From positions 1 to 35,887 of the forward strand of contig CANFNE010000002.1 of the NCBI GenBank assembly GCA_947448105.1: DNA of 35,887 nt, read 5' to 3'. Positions 2,280 through 7,643 of the stretch are shown piece by piece. Both the position numbers and the translations under genes were made by a program. The notes below the pieces were generated by a model. The model was not told the DNA's origin and did no database searches. It saw only the letters and a program-made list of their open reading frames with translations. The DNA comes from Burkholderiales bacterium. GTDB lineage: Bacteria > Pseudomonadota > Gammaproteobacteria > Burkholderiales > Burkholderiaceae_C. The first letter of the stretch is position 1; the number at the start of each line of letters is the position of its first letter.

Positions 2280-2747
2280 ATGGCCGCTACCCCACCGCGT
2301 CTGTGGGCGGGGCTGCCCCAGGGTGCCACGGTGCTGGTGGACACGGCGCCATTTGTCTATTTGCTCGAATCGCATCCGCAGTTTGCCGACCGCTTTGTCG
2401 GCCTGTTTGAAGCGGCGGCCCGGGGGCACTTGGCGATTGCGCTGTCCACCATCACGCTGGCCGAGGTGTTGACCGGCCCCTTCAAAGCGGGTCAAACCGC
2501 GCTGGCCAAACGCTACGAGAAAGCGCTTTTGCAATACCGGGTGGTGGACGCATCCGCGCCGATTGCCGCACTGGCGGCACAGTTGCGCGCCCAGTACCGG
2601 CTCAAACTACCCGACGCCTTGCAACTGGCCACGGCGCTGGACATTGGCGCGGCGGCCCTGGTCAGCCACGACCGTGATTTTTCGCAGGTCACGGGCCTGG
2701 ACATCTTGACCGGCGACGCTATGGCGCCCCAGCAAGGCGGACTTTGA
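2280..2747 (+). CDS. PIN-domain toxin (VapC-like ribonuclease)
   Basis: PIN acidic motifs VLVDTAPFVYLLE, STITLAEVL, LPDALQLATALDIGAAALVSHDRDF. ATG directly follows the antitoxin TGA. Confidence 0.88.
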   Translation: MAATPPRLWAGLPQGATVLVDTAPFVYLLESHPQFADRFVGLFEAAARGHLAIALSTITLAEVLTGPFKAGQTALAKRYEKALLQYRVVDASAPIAALAAQLRAQYRLKLPDALQLATALDIGAAALVSHDRDFSQVTGLDILTGDAMAPQQGGL

Positions 2748-4138
2748 CCTTAACCCCACCGATTACCAAGGCCAGCGACGCAGTCGCCTGGCTCCACGCC
2801 CAAGGCATTGCCCGGGTGGAAGTGGTGTTTGCCGACCTGACCAGCGTGGCGCGAGGCAAGCTGATGGACACAGAGAGCTTCGTCCAGGCCCTGGGCGCCA
2901 AGCTGCCCACGCTGCTGCTCGGGCTCACGGTCACGGGCGGCGAGCCGCCCGACGTGTTCAAACGCCTGTTTCCGCCCAGCTTTCCGGACATGGCGCTGCG
3001 GCCGGACTGGCGCACCCTGGTGCGCTGCCCCCTCTCACGCGTGCCCACGGCCACGGTGGTTTGCGATTTGGACGCGCGCTTTCGCGCCGCCGACGGCCAC
3101 GCCGACTACGCGGTGGCCGATCTGTCGCCCCGGCAACTGCTGGCGCGCACCTTGGCACGCCTTCAAGATGCGGGCTACCGGGCACTGGTGGCGCCCGAGC
3201 TGGAGTTCTTTTTGGTGCACCCCGCGCGCGACGCCCAAGGCGGCTTGCAGGTGGCGCACGGCATGTCGGGCACCGTGCCGCACATCGAGAGTTCGCACGA
3301 CCTGGCGTCCGCCGAAACAGCGCAGACCTTTGCGCCCTTTTTTGACGCACTGTGGGCGGCCTGCGAAGCGCAAGGCGTTCCCATCGCGGGCTACGGCCAC
3401 GAGTCGGCGACCGGGCAGTATGAAGTCAACTTCCGTCCAGGGGAGCCGCTGGCGCAGGCCGACGCGGTGTTTCGCTTCAAGCGCCTGGCGCGCGAAATAG
3501 CGAGGCGCCACGGCTGCCAGGCGACCTTTATGGCCAAGCCCTACCTGAACGAGCCTGGCACCGGCATGCACTGGCATATCAGCCTGAGCGACGCGAACGG
3601 CCACAACGCATTCACCGCCCCAGACGGCAGCGCACACCCGCGCCTGGCGCACTTTATTGGCGGCTGGCAGGCGTCGGCCTCCGGCGCCATGGCGATGCTG
3701 GCGCCCTATGCGCATTCCTACTTGCGCATTGCCCGCCCCGACGCGTCTCCGGCAAGTGCCGACTGGGGCTTTGATGACCGCAGGGTGGCATTTCGCATTC
3801 CCCCGTCTGACCCGGCCAACCGCCGCCTGGAACACCGCCTGCCCGGCGGCGACGCCAATCCCTATCTGGCGCTGGCGCTGATGGTGGGCACCGGCCTGAT
3901 TGGCATGCAGCAGCAACTCAAGCCCAGCGCTGCGCATGGCAGCGGTACACCGCCACCCACTGCGCCCTTGCCTCCAAACCTGGACGAGGCGCTGGTGGCC
4001 TTAGAAAACTGCCCACTTTTGGGCGAGGTGTTTGGAGCCGGTTTTATCGGCCTGTACGCCATGGTCAAGCGCCACGAGTTGACCGAGCAGGCGGCAGACG
4101 CGGACTTTGCGCTGCGGCATTTGCTGGCGCGCAGTTAA
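2744..4138 (+). CDS. Glutamine synthetase family protein (gamma-glutamyl-amine ligase-like)
   Basis: VEVVFADLTSVARGKLM, APELEFFLV, GQYEVNFRPGEPLAQAD, CQATFMAKPYLNEPGTGMHWHISL, NRRLEHRLPGGDANPYLALAL. TTG start at 2744 overlaps the PIN toxin stop. Confidence 0.88.
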   Translation: MTLTPPITKASDAVAWLHAQGIARVEVVFADLTSVARGKLMDTESFVQALGAKLPTLLLGLTVTGGEPPDVFKRLFPPSFPDMALRPDWRTLVRCPLSRVPTATVVCDLDARFRAADGHADYAVADLSPRQLLARTLARLQDAGYRALVAPELEFFLVHPARDAQGGLQVAHGMSGTVPHIESSHDLASAETAQTFAPFFDALWAACEAQGVPIAGYGHESATGQYEVNFRPGEPLAQADAVFRFKRLAREIARRHGCQATFMAKPYLNEPGTGMHWHISLSDANGHNAFTAPDGSAHPRLAHFIGGWQASASGAMAMLAPYAHSYLRIARPDASPASADWGFDDRRVAFRIPPSDPANRRLEHRLPGGDANPYLALALMVGTGLIGMQQQLKPSAAHGSGTPPPTAPLPPNLDEALVALENCPLLGEVFGAGFIGLYAMVKRHELTEQAADADFALRHLLARS

Positions 4139-4141
4139 GCG

Positions 4142-5485
4142 CTATCGATCCAGGCCGCTTTGGGCCTGCAAAAGCGCCGCCTCCATTTCCGCAAACAAGG
4201 GGCGTGCGGCGGGCAAGTCGCCCAGGCAGCACGCTTGCAGCGTTTTCAGTTGGGCCAGCAGTGGCTGCAGCGCAGCGGGCGCGTCAACACGCTCCAGCAG
4301 CTCTTCGAGCAAACAGCCAAAAGCGCGGGCTTCGAGCTGCTGCAGCTTTTCCCCTAAGGCCACGTCCTCAAACGGGTACAAGGACGCCGCGCCAAAGTCC
4401 CCCAACGTGGCCTGGCCGTGTGGGGAGGTCAGCGTGTTGTGCGCATACAAGTCACCGTGTATCACGCCCTGGCCGTGCAGGTGGCGCGCCGCAGACGCCA
4501 TGCCCGTGGCAATGCGCAGGGCGGTGGCCAGGTCAAAGCGGCGCTCTGCGGCATAGATGTCGCGGGTGCAGCTGTCCAGGCTGGGCGGGCCGGCCAGGTT
4601 TGTGCATGCGGCGTCCATCAAGTCCATCACCAGGCCGTCGATGCCCTGCGGGTGGGCACTGACGCGGCCACGCACGGGAATCAGGTGCGCGTGGCGCCCG
4701 CCGCGCAGGCAGGCCGCCATTTCCGAGCGCGGCAGACCGTCGCTGGTCATCGCGCCCTTGAACAACTTGACCGCCGTGGCTTGGGCTGCGCCGTCTGCGA
4801 AATGCGTGGCACGGTAGATCACGCCCGAAGCGCCCTCGCCCAGCAACTCGTGCAAATGCAGTGCTGACCAGGCAATGTCGGGCAGCGCCGCGCCGCCTTG
4901 CGCCAAGGCCTGCTCTTCCAGCGCCGCACAAAAAGGGTTGCCCGCAAAAGCCAGCCAGGCCAGGCGCGGCATGTCCAAGAGCCACGCCGGCAGGACCGTC
5001 AGCCCATTGGCGGCAATGCGCAGCAGCTCCAGCCGCTGGCAAGCGGCCAAGGATGGCGGCAAGGCGCGCAAGCGGTTGCCTGCGAGCATGAGCTTTTGCA
5101 AGTGCGCGCATTGACCAATGGACTCGGGAAGCTCGGTAATCTGGTTGTCGGTGAGGGTCAGCCAGCGCAGCAACGGGGGCAGCGACTGCGCGCTCACGCT
5201 GCGGATTTGGTTGGCCTTGAAACCGACCATGCGCAAGCTCTGGCACTGCCCCAGCACCGGTGGCAATTCGGTGAACTGGTTGTCCGAGCAAAACAGGATG
5301 CGCAGCTTGTGCAGGCGCGGCAAATCGTCTGGCAGCGCGCGCAGGGCGTTGCCCGACAGATCCAAGACCTCAAGGTGGTCTGCGAGCTGGTAAAGCGCAG
5401 TAGGGAATTCGGTGAGTGCCGCGTTGATCGCCACCCGCGGGAGGCCGGCCAGTGCGCCAGCGCGCAGTTGTTCAAGCGTGTGCAT
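4142..5485 (-). CDS. Leucine-rich-repeat protein with C-terminal protein-kinase-like domain
   Basis: About seven ~23-aa LRRs (LEVLDLSGNALRALPDDL, LRILFCSDNQFTELPPVL, LRWLTLTDNQITELPESI, LQKLMLAGNRLRALPPSL, LELLRIAANGLTVLPAWL...), followed by kinase motifs GEGASGVIYRA, AVKLFKG, VIHGDLYAHNTL, LGDFGAAS. Confidence 0.92.
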   Translation of the reverse strand: MHTLEQLRAGALAGLPRVAINAALTEFPTALYQLADHLEVLDLSGNALRALPDDLPRLHKLRILFCSDNQFTELPPVLGQCQSLRMVGFKANQIRSVSAQSLPPLLRWLTLTDNQITELPESIGQCAHLQKLMLAGNRLRALPPSLAACQRLELLRIAANGLTVLPAWLLDMPRLAWLAFAGNPFCAALEEQALAQGGAALPDIAWSALHLHELLGEGASGVIYRATHFADGAAQATAVKLFKGAMTSDGLPRSEMAACLRGGRHAHLIPVRGRVSAHPQGIDGLVMDLMDAACTNLAGPPSLDSCTRDIYAAERRFDLATALRIATGMASAARHLHGQGVIHGDLYAHNTLTSPHGQATLGDFGAASLYPFEDVALGEKLQQLEARAFGCLLEELLERVDAPAALQPLLAQLKTLQACCLGDLPAARPLFAEMEAALLQAQSGLDR

Positions 5486-5531: not shown

Positions 5532-5777
5532 TCAGGTGATTTTGAAGACGGTGCGCACCGTGGCCGCGCCGCGCTTTTCTTCAAACACCGTCCATTGTTT
5601 GATGCCTTTGACCAGCACCTGGGTGCTGATGTCTTTGAGGACGGCTTTGGTCTTGCGCTTTTCGGTGAGCCAGTCTTGGACGTGCGCGTAGGTGTGGCCG
5701 GGCGCACCCGTGGGCACGAGCAGGGTTTTGCCAGCCACGCTGCCCATCGACTGCACGGTGATTTCGGTGGCAGGCAT
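5532..5777 (-). CDS. Small conserved-looking hypothetical protein (81 aa)
   Basis: Open 81-codon frame starting MPATEITVQSMGSVAGKTLLVPTGAPGHTYAHVQDWL. No competing better ORF on the other strand. No family recognised. Confidence 0.55.
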   Translation of the reverse strand: MPATEITVQSMGSVAGKTLLVPTGAPGHTYAHVQDWLTEKRKTKAVLKDISTQVLVKGIKQWTVFEEKRGAATVRTVFKIT

Positions 5778-5861: not shown

Positions 5862-6539
5862 CTATTGTGGTGCGCTGCTGGGCTGCGCCCCATCCTGCGC
5901 CTGCACCTCTGGCTGCGGCGCGTCACGCCACTGCAGGTACCAAAAAGCGGCCACTGCCAGGGCCAGGGCCAGCGCAACCGACCACCAGGCCCGCGCAATG
6001 CCCTGAGAAGGTTTGCCCTGCTTGAACCCCGTGACCATGGCGCGCGGCAGGTTTTCGCGGTGCAGCACGCTGGCCACGGCCACACCGGCAAGGTGCACAC
6101 CCACCAATACCAGCATGGCGTTACCCACAACTTCATGCACCTCTTCCAGCCAGTCGCCACCGAGTTCGTTGTAGACCGCGTAACCGCTGGCCACGATGGC
6201 GGCGCCCACGAGCAGCATCAGCACAATCGCCACGGCGCCTGCGGGGTTGTGGCCGATGTAGTGCGCCGGGCGCCCCGCCACCATGCCTTTGACGTAGCTG
6301 CGCACCGCAGACGGAGAGCGCACAAAGCTGCCAAAGCGCGCGTAGCGCGTGCCCAGCACGCCCCAGACCAACCGAAAGGCGATCAGCCCGCCCATGGTGT
6401 AGCCCAGGGTGACGTGCAGCAGGCGCCAGCTTTCGCTCTCGGCGCTGAGGTAGGCGCCGGCAAAACACAGCGCCAGCAGCCAGTGGAAGGTGCGCACGGG
6501 GGCGTCCCAGACGAGGATTTTGGAATCAGAAGGAGTCAT
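5862..6539 (-). CDS. Cytochrome b561/b6-type membrane cytochrome b
   Basis: KILVWDAPVRTFHWLLALCFAGAYLS..., LLHVTLGYTMGGLIAFRLVWGVLGTRYARF and EEVHEVVGNAMLVLVGVHLAGV carry the heme-ligand His-containing TM helices of this family. Confidence 0.92.
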   Translation of the reverse strand: MTPSDSKILVWDAPVRTFHWLLALCFAGAYLSAESESWRLLHVTLGYTMGGLIAFRLVWGVLGTRYARFGSFVRSPSAVRSYVKGMVAGRPAHYIGHNPAGAVAIVLMLLVGAAIVASGYAVYNELGGDWLEEVHEVVGNAMLVLVGVHLAGVAVASVLHRENLPRAMVTGFKQGKPSQGIARAWWSVALALALAVAAFWYLQWRDAPQPEVQAQDGAQPSSAPQ

Positions 6540-6569
6540 GTATTTCCTGTTATTTCGCCCGCAAGCGGC

Positions 6570-7055
6570 TTATTTGGGGATGCGCACTTCGTGCTCGTTG
6601 AAATTGCCCTCGGCAGCGTGGCCATGGCATGCGCCGCAGTTGGCCGCGCCGCCCACCGAGGCGCGCTTGAACACGCTGGCGCTCACCTCGTCGTGCTGGC
6701 GCACGAACCAACTTGACTTGCTGATGCGGTTGTCAGGCGGCGCCTCGCTCATGCGCCGACCGGTGCCCGCATTGGCCTGAAGCCAGGCGCTGATTTGCTT
6801 GGCTGTGGCAGCGTCGAGCGAGGCGTCGGTGCCAAAGTGCTTGGGCAGATTGGACATGAGCTGCTGCCACGACTGGGCTGGCAGCATGGCCGCCGGGTAC
6901 GCGATGTGGCATGCGGCGCACTCGGTTTTATAAAGGGGCAAAGGGGCCGGGTTGGACCGGCCGAAGTCGGCATGGGCGGCGCTGGCAAAGCCCAAGGCGG
7001 CCAAGGCTGTCAGCAAGGCGGCGCGCAGGCGTACAGGGCTGGTGTGTTTTGTCAT
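6570..7055 (-). CDS. Diheme cytochrome c (DHC-like)
   Basis: Signal peptide (LLTALAALGFASAAHA) and two CxxCH sites (CAACH, CGACH). Lies between the cytochrome b and DUF1924 genes. Start ATG at 7055. Confidence 0.9.
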   Translation of the reverse strand: MTKHTSPVRLRAALLTALAALGFASAAHADFGRSNPAPLPLYKTECAACHIAYPAAMLPAQSWQQLMSNLPKHFGTDASLDAATAKQISAWLQANAGTGRRMSEAPPDNRISKSSWFVRQHDEVSASVFKRASVGGAANCGACHGHAAEGNFNEHEVRIPK

Positions 7056-7072
7056 GGGTATCTTTCTTGAAC

Positions 7073-7528
7073 TTAGGGTTTGAGCGTGAGGAGCCAGGCG
7101 ATCACATCGGCTTTTTCGCTCGCGCTGCATTCGCGGCCGACCACGTCGTTGCAGTTGCGGCGGAACCACTTCTCGGTTTTTGCGGCGTCGGTAAAGCGTT
7201 CGGGGTTGGCGGCGGGCGCCATGGGCCGGATGGTTTTGCCGGTGCTGGCATGCTTGCCGTCCACCGTGGGTTTGGCCGTGTGGCAAGAGGAACAAGACCA
7301 GTCGTGCCCGAGCTTGGAGGTGAAGAACTCTTGGCCGCGCGCGGGCTGCGGCGTTTGACCCGACTGCACGGCGTAGCTTGCGAGTTGCTCGGTAGCGTTG
7401 AGCGCATGCGCGGGCAGCGCGACGGCGCCTGCGGCCAAGGCCAAAGCGGCAGCGCCCCGCGCAACAAGCCCACGACGCCCTGGTGGCCAAGAGGCGGTCA
7501 AAGAAAACGCAAAGGGGAAAAGTGGCAT
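7073..7528 (-). CDS. DUF1924 / sphaeroides heme protein (SHP)-like monoheme cytochrome c
   Basis: Signal peptide, CSSCH heme site, KHASTGKTIRPMAPAANPERFTDAAKTEKWFRRNCNDVVGRECSASEKADVIAWLLTL. Start ATG at 7528. Confidence 0.88.
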   Translation of the reverse strand: MPLFPFAFSLTASWPPGRRGLVARGAAALALAAGAVALPAHALNATEQLASYAVQSGQTPQPARGQEFFTSKLGHDWSCSSCHTAKPTVDGKHASTGKTIRPMAPAANPERFTDAAKTEKWFRRNCNDVVGRECSASEKADVIAWLLTLKP

Positions 7529-7601
7529 AGAGGCTCCTTGGTGTGCATGGTGGCATACGCAGATTAAGGACATGTAAAGCCCTTCGCCACCCCAAAAAGC
7601 A

Positions 7602-7643
7602 AACAAGGGTGCGAAATGCACGCATGCACTTCGCACCCTTGTT
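7602..7643 (-). terminator. Rho-independent terminator of the liv operon
   Basis: 19-nt arms AACAAGGGTGCGAAATGCA / TGCACTTCGCACCCTTGTT (one mismatch) around a CGCA loop. On the minus strand it is followed by TTGCTTTTTGG, downstream of livF. Confidence 0.75.

Follow-up and report, generated by a model that had tools for sequence, protein, structure and literature searches.

The window, that is, the whole stretch of DNA analysed here, comprises 35,887 nucleotides from a Burkholderiales bacterium. On its minus strand, an open reading frame at 4142-5485 translates into 447 amino acids, starting with the ATG at 5485 and ending with the stop codon at 4142-4144; frame 1 of the plus strand over the same interval is interrupted by stops. 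The product, referred to below as the LRR-kinase, joins leucine-rich repeats (LRRs) to a kinase domain, and its features are the following:

4142..5485, minus strand: LRR-kinase gene, 447 aa plus stop (reading frame and translation; 100% self match in its own genome)
4925..5374, minus strand: seven leucine-rich repeats, aa 38-187 (Pfam LRR_8/LRR_4, repeat register, entropy, AlphaFold2 model)
4148..4861, minus strand: kinase domain, aa 209-446 (Pfam, AlphaFold2 models, Foldseek against the PDB)
4721..4747, minus strand: TSDGxPxxE motif, aa 247-255, in the loop between beta3 and helix C (invariant in both entropy sets, A1 and A2)
4559..4588, minus strand: PPSxxSCTRD motif, aa 300-309, between hinge and helix E, replacing helix D (alignments and model)
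4436..4459, minus strand: catalytic loop HGDLYAHN, aa 343-350, equivalent to HRDxKxxN (homologue scan)
4331..4399, minus strand: DFG-to-helix-F segment, aa 363-385, shortened and without APE (homologue spacing and model)

Given that orthologues of the LRR-kinase are 48-72% identical and that dN/dS is approximately 0.2 (range 0.11-0.24) across both the LRR and kinase parts, the reading frame is beyond chance, and these values indicate that the gene is under purifying selection. It is present as a single copy in its own genome (2.3 Mb assembly, 76% complete), where recent foreign origin was rejected, as its GC content (66.1%) and GC3 (0.81) match those of its neighbours. The original prediction of a gene at this position, encoding an intracellular LRR-kinase with seven LPx-type repeats at about aa 38-187, is thus borne out in its main parts: the strand is now fixed as minus, the repeats are recovered by Pfam and by their register, and, with no signal peptide or transmembrane segment visible in the protein, a cytosolic location is likely.

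Upstream of the kinase gene by 47 bases lies an 81-aa reading frame (5532-5777, minus strand) with no Pfam match. Copies with 80% identity are found just upstream of the kinase gene only in the two closest relatives (L051 and L053), so that a genuine small gene specific to this lineage is probable. A cytochrome gene set follows at 5862-7636 on the minus strand (cytochrome b561, dihaem cytochrome c (DHC) and DUF1924), and at L051 and L053, too, the kinase gene has cytochrome genes upstream of it. On the plus strand, a Phd/YefM-type antitoxin (just under cut-off) and a PIN-domain toxin are encoded at 2013-2747, a pair that overlaps with the beginning of a glutamine-synthetase-like gene (2744-4138).

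An all-against-all comparison of neighbours at 105 loci revealed no consistent neighbour gene, operon or partner. Neighbours are shared only through synteny at the level of the genus (Paraburkholderia, Duganella, and the window together with L051 and L053) or as members of common families, for which reason an operon or partner-gene reading was rejected. LysR regulators, MFS transporters and short-chain dehydrogenases head the Pfam families found among 124 neighbouring genes at 37 loci, each with at most five members. At one locus, on plasmid pVF1 of Vitreoscilla filiformis, the LRR-kinase gene lies divergent to a cluster of genes for a sigma-54 regulator, a DEAD/DEAH helicase and a DNA methyltransferase; neighbours of this kind were seen at no other locus. 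Plasmid carriage as a general property was rejected: the 15 records labelled as plasmids are mostly very large non-mobilizable replicons, with 5 of the 15 lacking table annotation.

Relatives occur at a minimum of 587 loci in GTDB species genomes, within Pseudomonadota and Hymenobacter; the best 80 of these at least 587 include members of Burkholderiales, Rhodocyclales, Gallionellaceae, Methylococcales, Shewanella and Pseudomonas, as well as eight Hymenobacteraceae. The gene is carried by 22 of the 151 genomes of the window genome's own family and by 52 of 399 genomes sampled across Pseudomonadota, with a maximum of one copy each. In 132 of 133 homologues, with bimodal scores, the LRR is fused to the kinase; the sole unfused one (L110) has its frame split between the two parts, by sequencing error or as a pseudogene. 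In the tree, the nearest relatives of the window protein are from Comamonadaceae, whose members are scattered over several distinct groups, a pattern suggestive of transfer or differential loss. The Hymenobacteraceae form a single group inside the Pseudomonadota part of the tree, which is unrooted, and the LRR-kinase has likely moved between phyla.

That bacterial LRR-kinases already stand in databases had been anticipated correctly. NCBI uses the product name 'leucine-rich repeat-containing protein kinase family protein', and annotated members such as WP_089418300.1 (Vitreoscilla filiformis) and BEI72309.1 (Paraburkholderia) are 53-62% identical to the window protein over 87-98% of its length. 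With an N-terminal LRR and a kinase in one reading frame and full-length homology, the window protein belongs to this family; the known members share both domains and the motifs with it, and no difference of substance separates them. A Pseudomonas aeruginosa Ser/Thr/Tyr kinase with LRRs (gi 9948555) was reported as early as 2005 (PMC1262709); compared by description, it is likewise an LRR and kinase in a bacterium, and is likely orthologous. Our literature search, with subscription journals and preprints outside its scope, found no functional study of the family, which is thus catalogued, functionally undescribed and apparently never studied.

The kinase part matches Pfam models above curated cut-offs at aa 209-370 (PK_Tyr_Ser-Thr, 2.6e-12; Pkinase, 2.8e-11). 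AlphaFold2, run with an input alignment of 63 homologues, predicts a bilobal kinase fold, both at full length (mean pLDDT 96.6, pTM 0.93) and for the kinase part alone (mean pLDDT 94.6, pTM 0.91). The modelled N-lobe consists of beta1-5 and helix C (252-262), followed by helix E (319-338), helix F (375-398) and two C-terminal helices (404-420 and 431-446). Foldseek searches of the PDB return at the top only tyrosine-kinase-type and related ePK domains (FGFR, Ack1, EphA3, RET, Abl, Src-type), with E values down to 4e-14 and TM-scores of 0.65-0.72 by query length, and a sequence profile search agrees (FGFR1, 7.8e-18). These FGFR-type domains share approximately 20% identity with the LRR-kinase, a match rather than membership, since the LRR-kinase lacks their activation loop, APE, G helix and HRD Arg. 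The absence of a predicted bilobal fold had been named as the result that would overturn the kinase assignment, which therefore survives. The protein falls in the protein-kinase-like superfamily by this fold and by alignment with nine of the ten key residues of Kannan et al. 2007 (PMC1821047): G52 corresponds to G218, K72 to K240, E91 to E255, P104 to the HP motif (a column that is not fully conserved, with Ala in the window protein), H158 to H337, H164 to H343, D166 to D345, N171 to N350 and D184 to D363, with Glu385 standing in place of the helix-F Asp, D220.

Conservation was assessed as entropy over a close set of 64 sequences (A2) and a wider set of 25 (A1). The ATP-site and catalytic residues G216, G218, K240, E255, H343, D345, N350, D363 and G365 are invariant in both. 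The GEGASG loop (216-221), K240, HGDLYAHN (343-350) and DFG (363-365) are present as had been predicted, and the catalytic loop is indeed of the non-RD type, with the HRD Arg replaced by Gly. The Lys position of this loop is replaced as well, by Tyr347; the resulting HGDxYxHN is present in 133 of 133 homologues, in a scan whose pattern itself already demanded related letters. Two further motifs defined here, together with HGDxYxHN, characterize the family, and the window protein carries all three. TSDGxPxxE, found in 132 of 133 homologues, ends in E255, which is likely the helix-C Glu; in PPSxxSCTRD, where the model has no helix, P300, P301, C306, R308 and D309 are invariant in A1 and A2. To our knowledge, neither TSDGxPxxE nor PPSxxSCTRD occurs in any described kinase.

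Beyond DFG the domain is strongly compressed. Helix F begins at 375 in the model, with only about 11 residues between DFG and helix F, and the distance from the DFG Asp to the helix-F acidic residue (E385) is 20-22 residues in 63 of 64 homologues; in PKA, the distance between the DFG Asp and the helix-F Asp is 36. Neither an APE motif nor a G helix is visible in the sequence or the AlphaFold2 model, and the helix-F equivalent of W-[SA]-x-G reads R-A-F-G, its Arg (R387) being invariant. The earlier remark that no recognisable activation loop or APE follows DFGAAS is confirmed by this spacing. The LRR-kinase is thus not a canonical ePK of the PknB/Hanks type, whether judged by the segment (APE, W-[SA]-x-G and G helix absent) or by the loop (HRD Arg and catalytic-loop Lys absent, HGDxYxHN throughout). 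A minority of homologues terminate 34-53 residues past DFGAA, soon after helix F, and hence the last kinase helices appear dispensable. Five such proteins (L044, L046, L042, L036 and L047) are missing the last one or two helices; another short homologue, L158, may be clipped by a contig end.

The HRD Arg has been tied to activation-loop phosphorylation, and the network of APE, W-[SA]-x-G and R280 has been linked to substrate coupling (Kannan et al. 2007, PMC1821047). Activation loop, APE and HRD Arg are lost together in the LRR-kinase, and the Trp position is held by the invariant R387; given the published links, these losses form one package.

The LRR part is matched by Pfam LRR_8 (1.8e-17) and LRR_4 (4.9e-17), both above cut-off, with repeats starting at aa 38, 61, 84, 106, 129, 152 and 175. 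With the register LxxLxLxxN, the concave face was defined as the exposed beta-strand positions 3, 5, 7 and 8. Mean entropy at these positions is 0.40 bits in A2 (n=64) and 0.50 bits in A1 (n=25), against 0.34 and 0.51 bits for the structural core and 2.02 and 2.10 bits for the other exposed LRR positions; the difference between concave and other exposed positions has a P of about 1e-9 in each set. Among the positions that do not vary even in the wider set are F65, S67, G88, K90, W108, K131, R156, W177 and A179. By these entropies, the concave face is nearly frozen, about as conserved as the structural core, a result that forms the chief new evidence presented here. In immune-type LRR receptors, the concave face is the variable part, and a receptor engaged in an arms race should show the reverse pattern. 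Low concave entropy speaks for one conserved contact, not for the nature of that contact. With a binding face that has hardly changed over two phyla, the LRR-kinase is probably devoted to a single conserved partner, and not to the sensing of enemies that keep changing.

Our preferred reading, held with about even confidence, is that the protein acts as a kinase of proteins in the cytosol, that no activation loop switches it, and that its LRR is the dock for a single conserved protein partner, either substrate or activator. The kinase would be an ePK-fold enzyme, predicted to be active, that has lost the activation segment, the P+1 loop and the G helix; given these losses, it could not switch or hold a substrate through the activation loop in the usual manner. 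The LRR solenoid would instead bind one conserved intracellular protein through its frozen concave face, and this contact may either deliver the substrate to the kinase cleft or set the N-lobe, with the TSDG loop beside helix C, into an active position. In the models, the N-lobe stretch at about aa 246-255 has a block pLDDT of 81 without the LRR versus 89-95 at full length, a weak hint that the LRR touches the N-lobe at the TSDG stretch. Judged from sequence, Y347 in place of the catalytic-loop Lys weighs against certainty about the type of phosphoacceptor, and even about transfer itself; nor does any conserved neighbour point to a partner.

A frozen face could also be explained if the concave surface clamps the protein's own kinase domain, giving a self-docked, constitutive enzyme with no external ligand. 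The full-length pTM implies a well-defined domain arrangement, and conservation of the concave face goes along with that of the kinase loops; however, the kinase alone folds confidently without the LRR, and LRRs generally bind other proteins, which makes self-docking unlikely in our view. The HGD loop and the absent activation loop, along with a weak Kdo/WaaP match, recall the small-molecule members of the superfamily, such as aminoglycoside and choline kinases, in which case the substrate would be a metabolite and the LRR would only localise the enzyme. Sequence and fold searches nevertheless group the LRR-kinase with protein kinases, its glycine loop retains the ePK-type G216/G218/G221, and the candidate was rejected on fold since the top Foldseek matches are protein kinases; we consider it improbable. 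That the fold is retained purely for binding, as in a pseudokinase scaffold, would fit the substitutions of the HRD Arg, the catalytic-loop Lys and the helix-F Asp. Yet the ATP-binding, metal-binding and catalytic-base residues are all invariant over two phyla, so that we give this reading hardly any weight.

A role in sensing stress, predation or phage had been raised in the original prediction, together with a search for defence-island association. An anti-phage or stress sensor, whose LRR would read a phage or damage signal for the kinase to trigger defence, draws on the patchy distribution (22/151 family genomes) and on matches of the kinase domain to the defence kinases MAD6 and PD-T4-6. 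These matches, however, amount to generic similarity of the kinase core (<=51 bits), and the concave face is frozen. Few of the 124 neighbours at 37 loci match defence models and none recurs beyond two helicases, so the defence-island candidate was rejected. Phage or viral carriage was rejected too, as IMG/VR holds no relatives and matches in phage records are confined to the LRR. The suggested role is thus unsupported, and we regard such a sensor as highly improbable. Only a very slight chance is left to an injected effector acting on eukaryotic cells, in the manner of the LPX-type LRR proteins XopAC, XopL and SspH2. The LRR part does resemble the models of XopAC, XopL and SlrP, with scores far under cut-offs, and the enzymatic part of these proteins and of SspH2 is a Fic domain or E3 ligase, not a kinase. 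Neither T3SS (5/22 carriers vs 13/129 others, P 0.14) nor T6SS (8/22 vs 34/129, P 0.44) is associated with the gene, which also occurs in Hymenobacter; 13 of the 22 carriers, including the one-contig genomes G081, G122 and G129, have neither system, and effector membership was rejected for that reason.

Plant LRR receptor kinases and LRRK2 likewise hold LRR and kinase in one protein, a likeness of architecture only: the former are membrane receptors with full activation segments, and LRRK2 has ROC-COR domains. OspG and NleH, like the LRR-kinase, have an ePK fold without an activation loop, and OspG is activated by a partner protein, being stimulated by ubiquitin binding (PMC3585378). Both are T3SS effectors with no LRR and without subdomains VIII-XI; the LRR-kinase, unlike them, keeps helix F and usually two later helices, and shows no link to the secretion systems above. 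By analogy, OspG may be the nearest functional precedent for a partner-driven kinase without an activation loop. It is conceivable, if doubtful, that the family forms a distinct kinase class, in which the LRR replaces the activation segment and G helix for docking and switching on one conserved intracellular protein throughout Pseudomonadota and Hymenobacteraceae, with a Tyr-based loop, HGDxYxHN, that is not known from described protein kinases.

Taken together, the near-frozen concave face, the two near-invariant motifs and the package of losses are new here, none being found described in the searchable literature, and they concern a single-copy family, apparently unstudied, in 52 of 399 sampled Pseudomonadota genomes. 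They also correct the tempting view that an LRR-kinase of bacteria is a receptor of the immune-like kind. From the frozen recognition face, a single conserved ligand or substrate is predicted. If the enzyme is active without an activation loop, the family would provide a test of how such a switch can be replaced by a partner or a docking domain.
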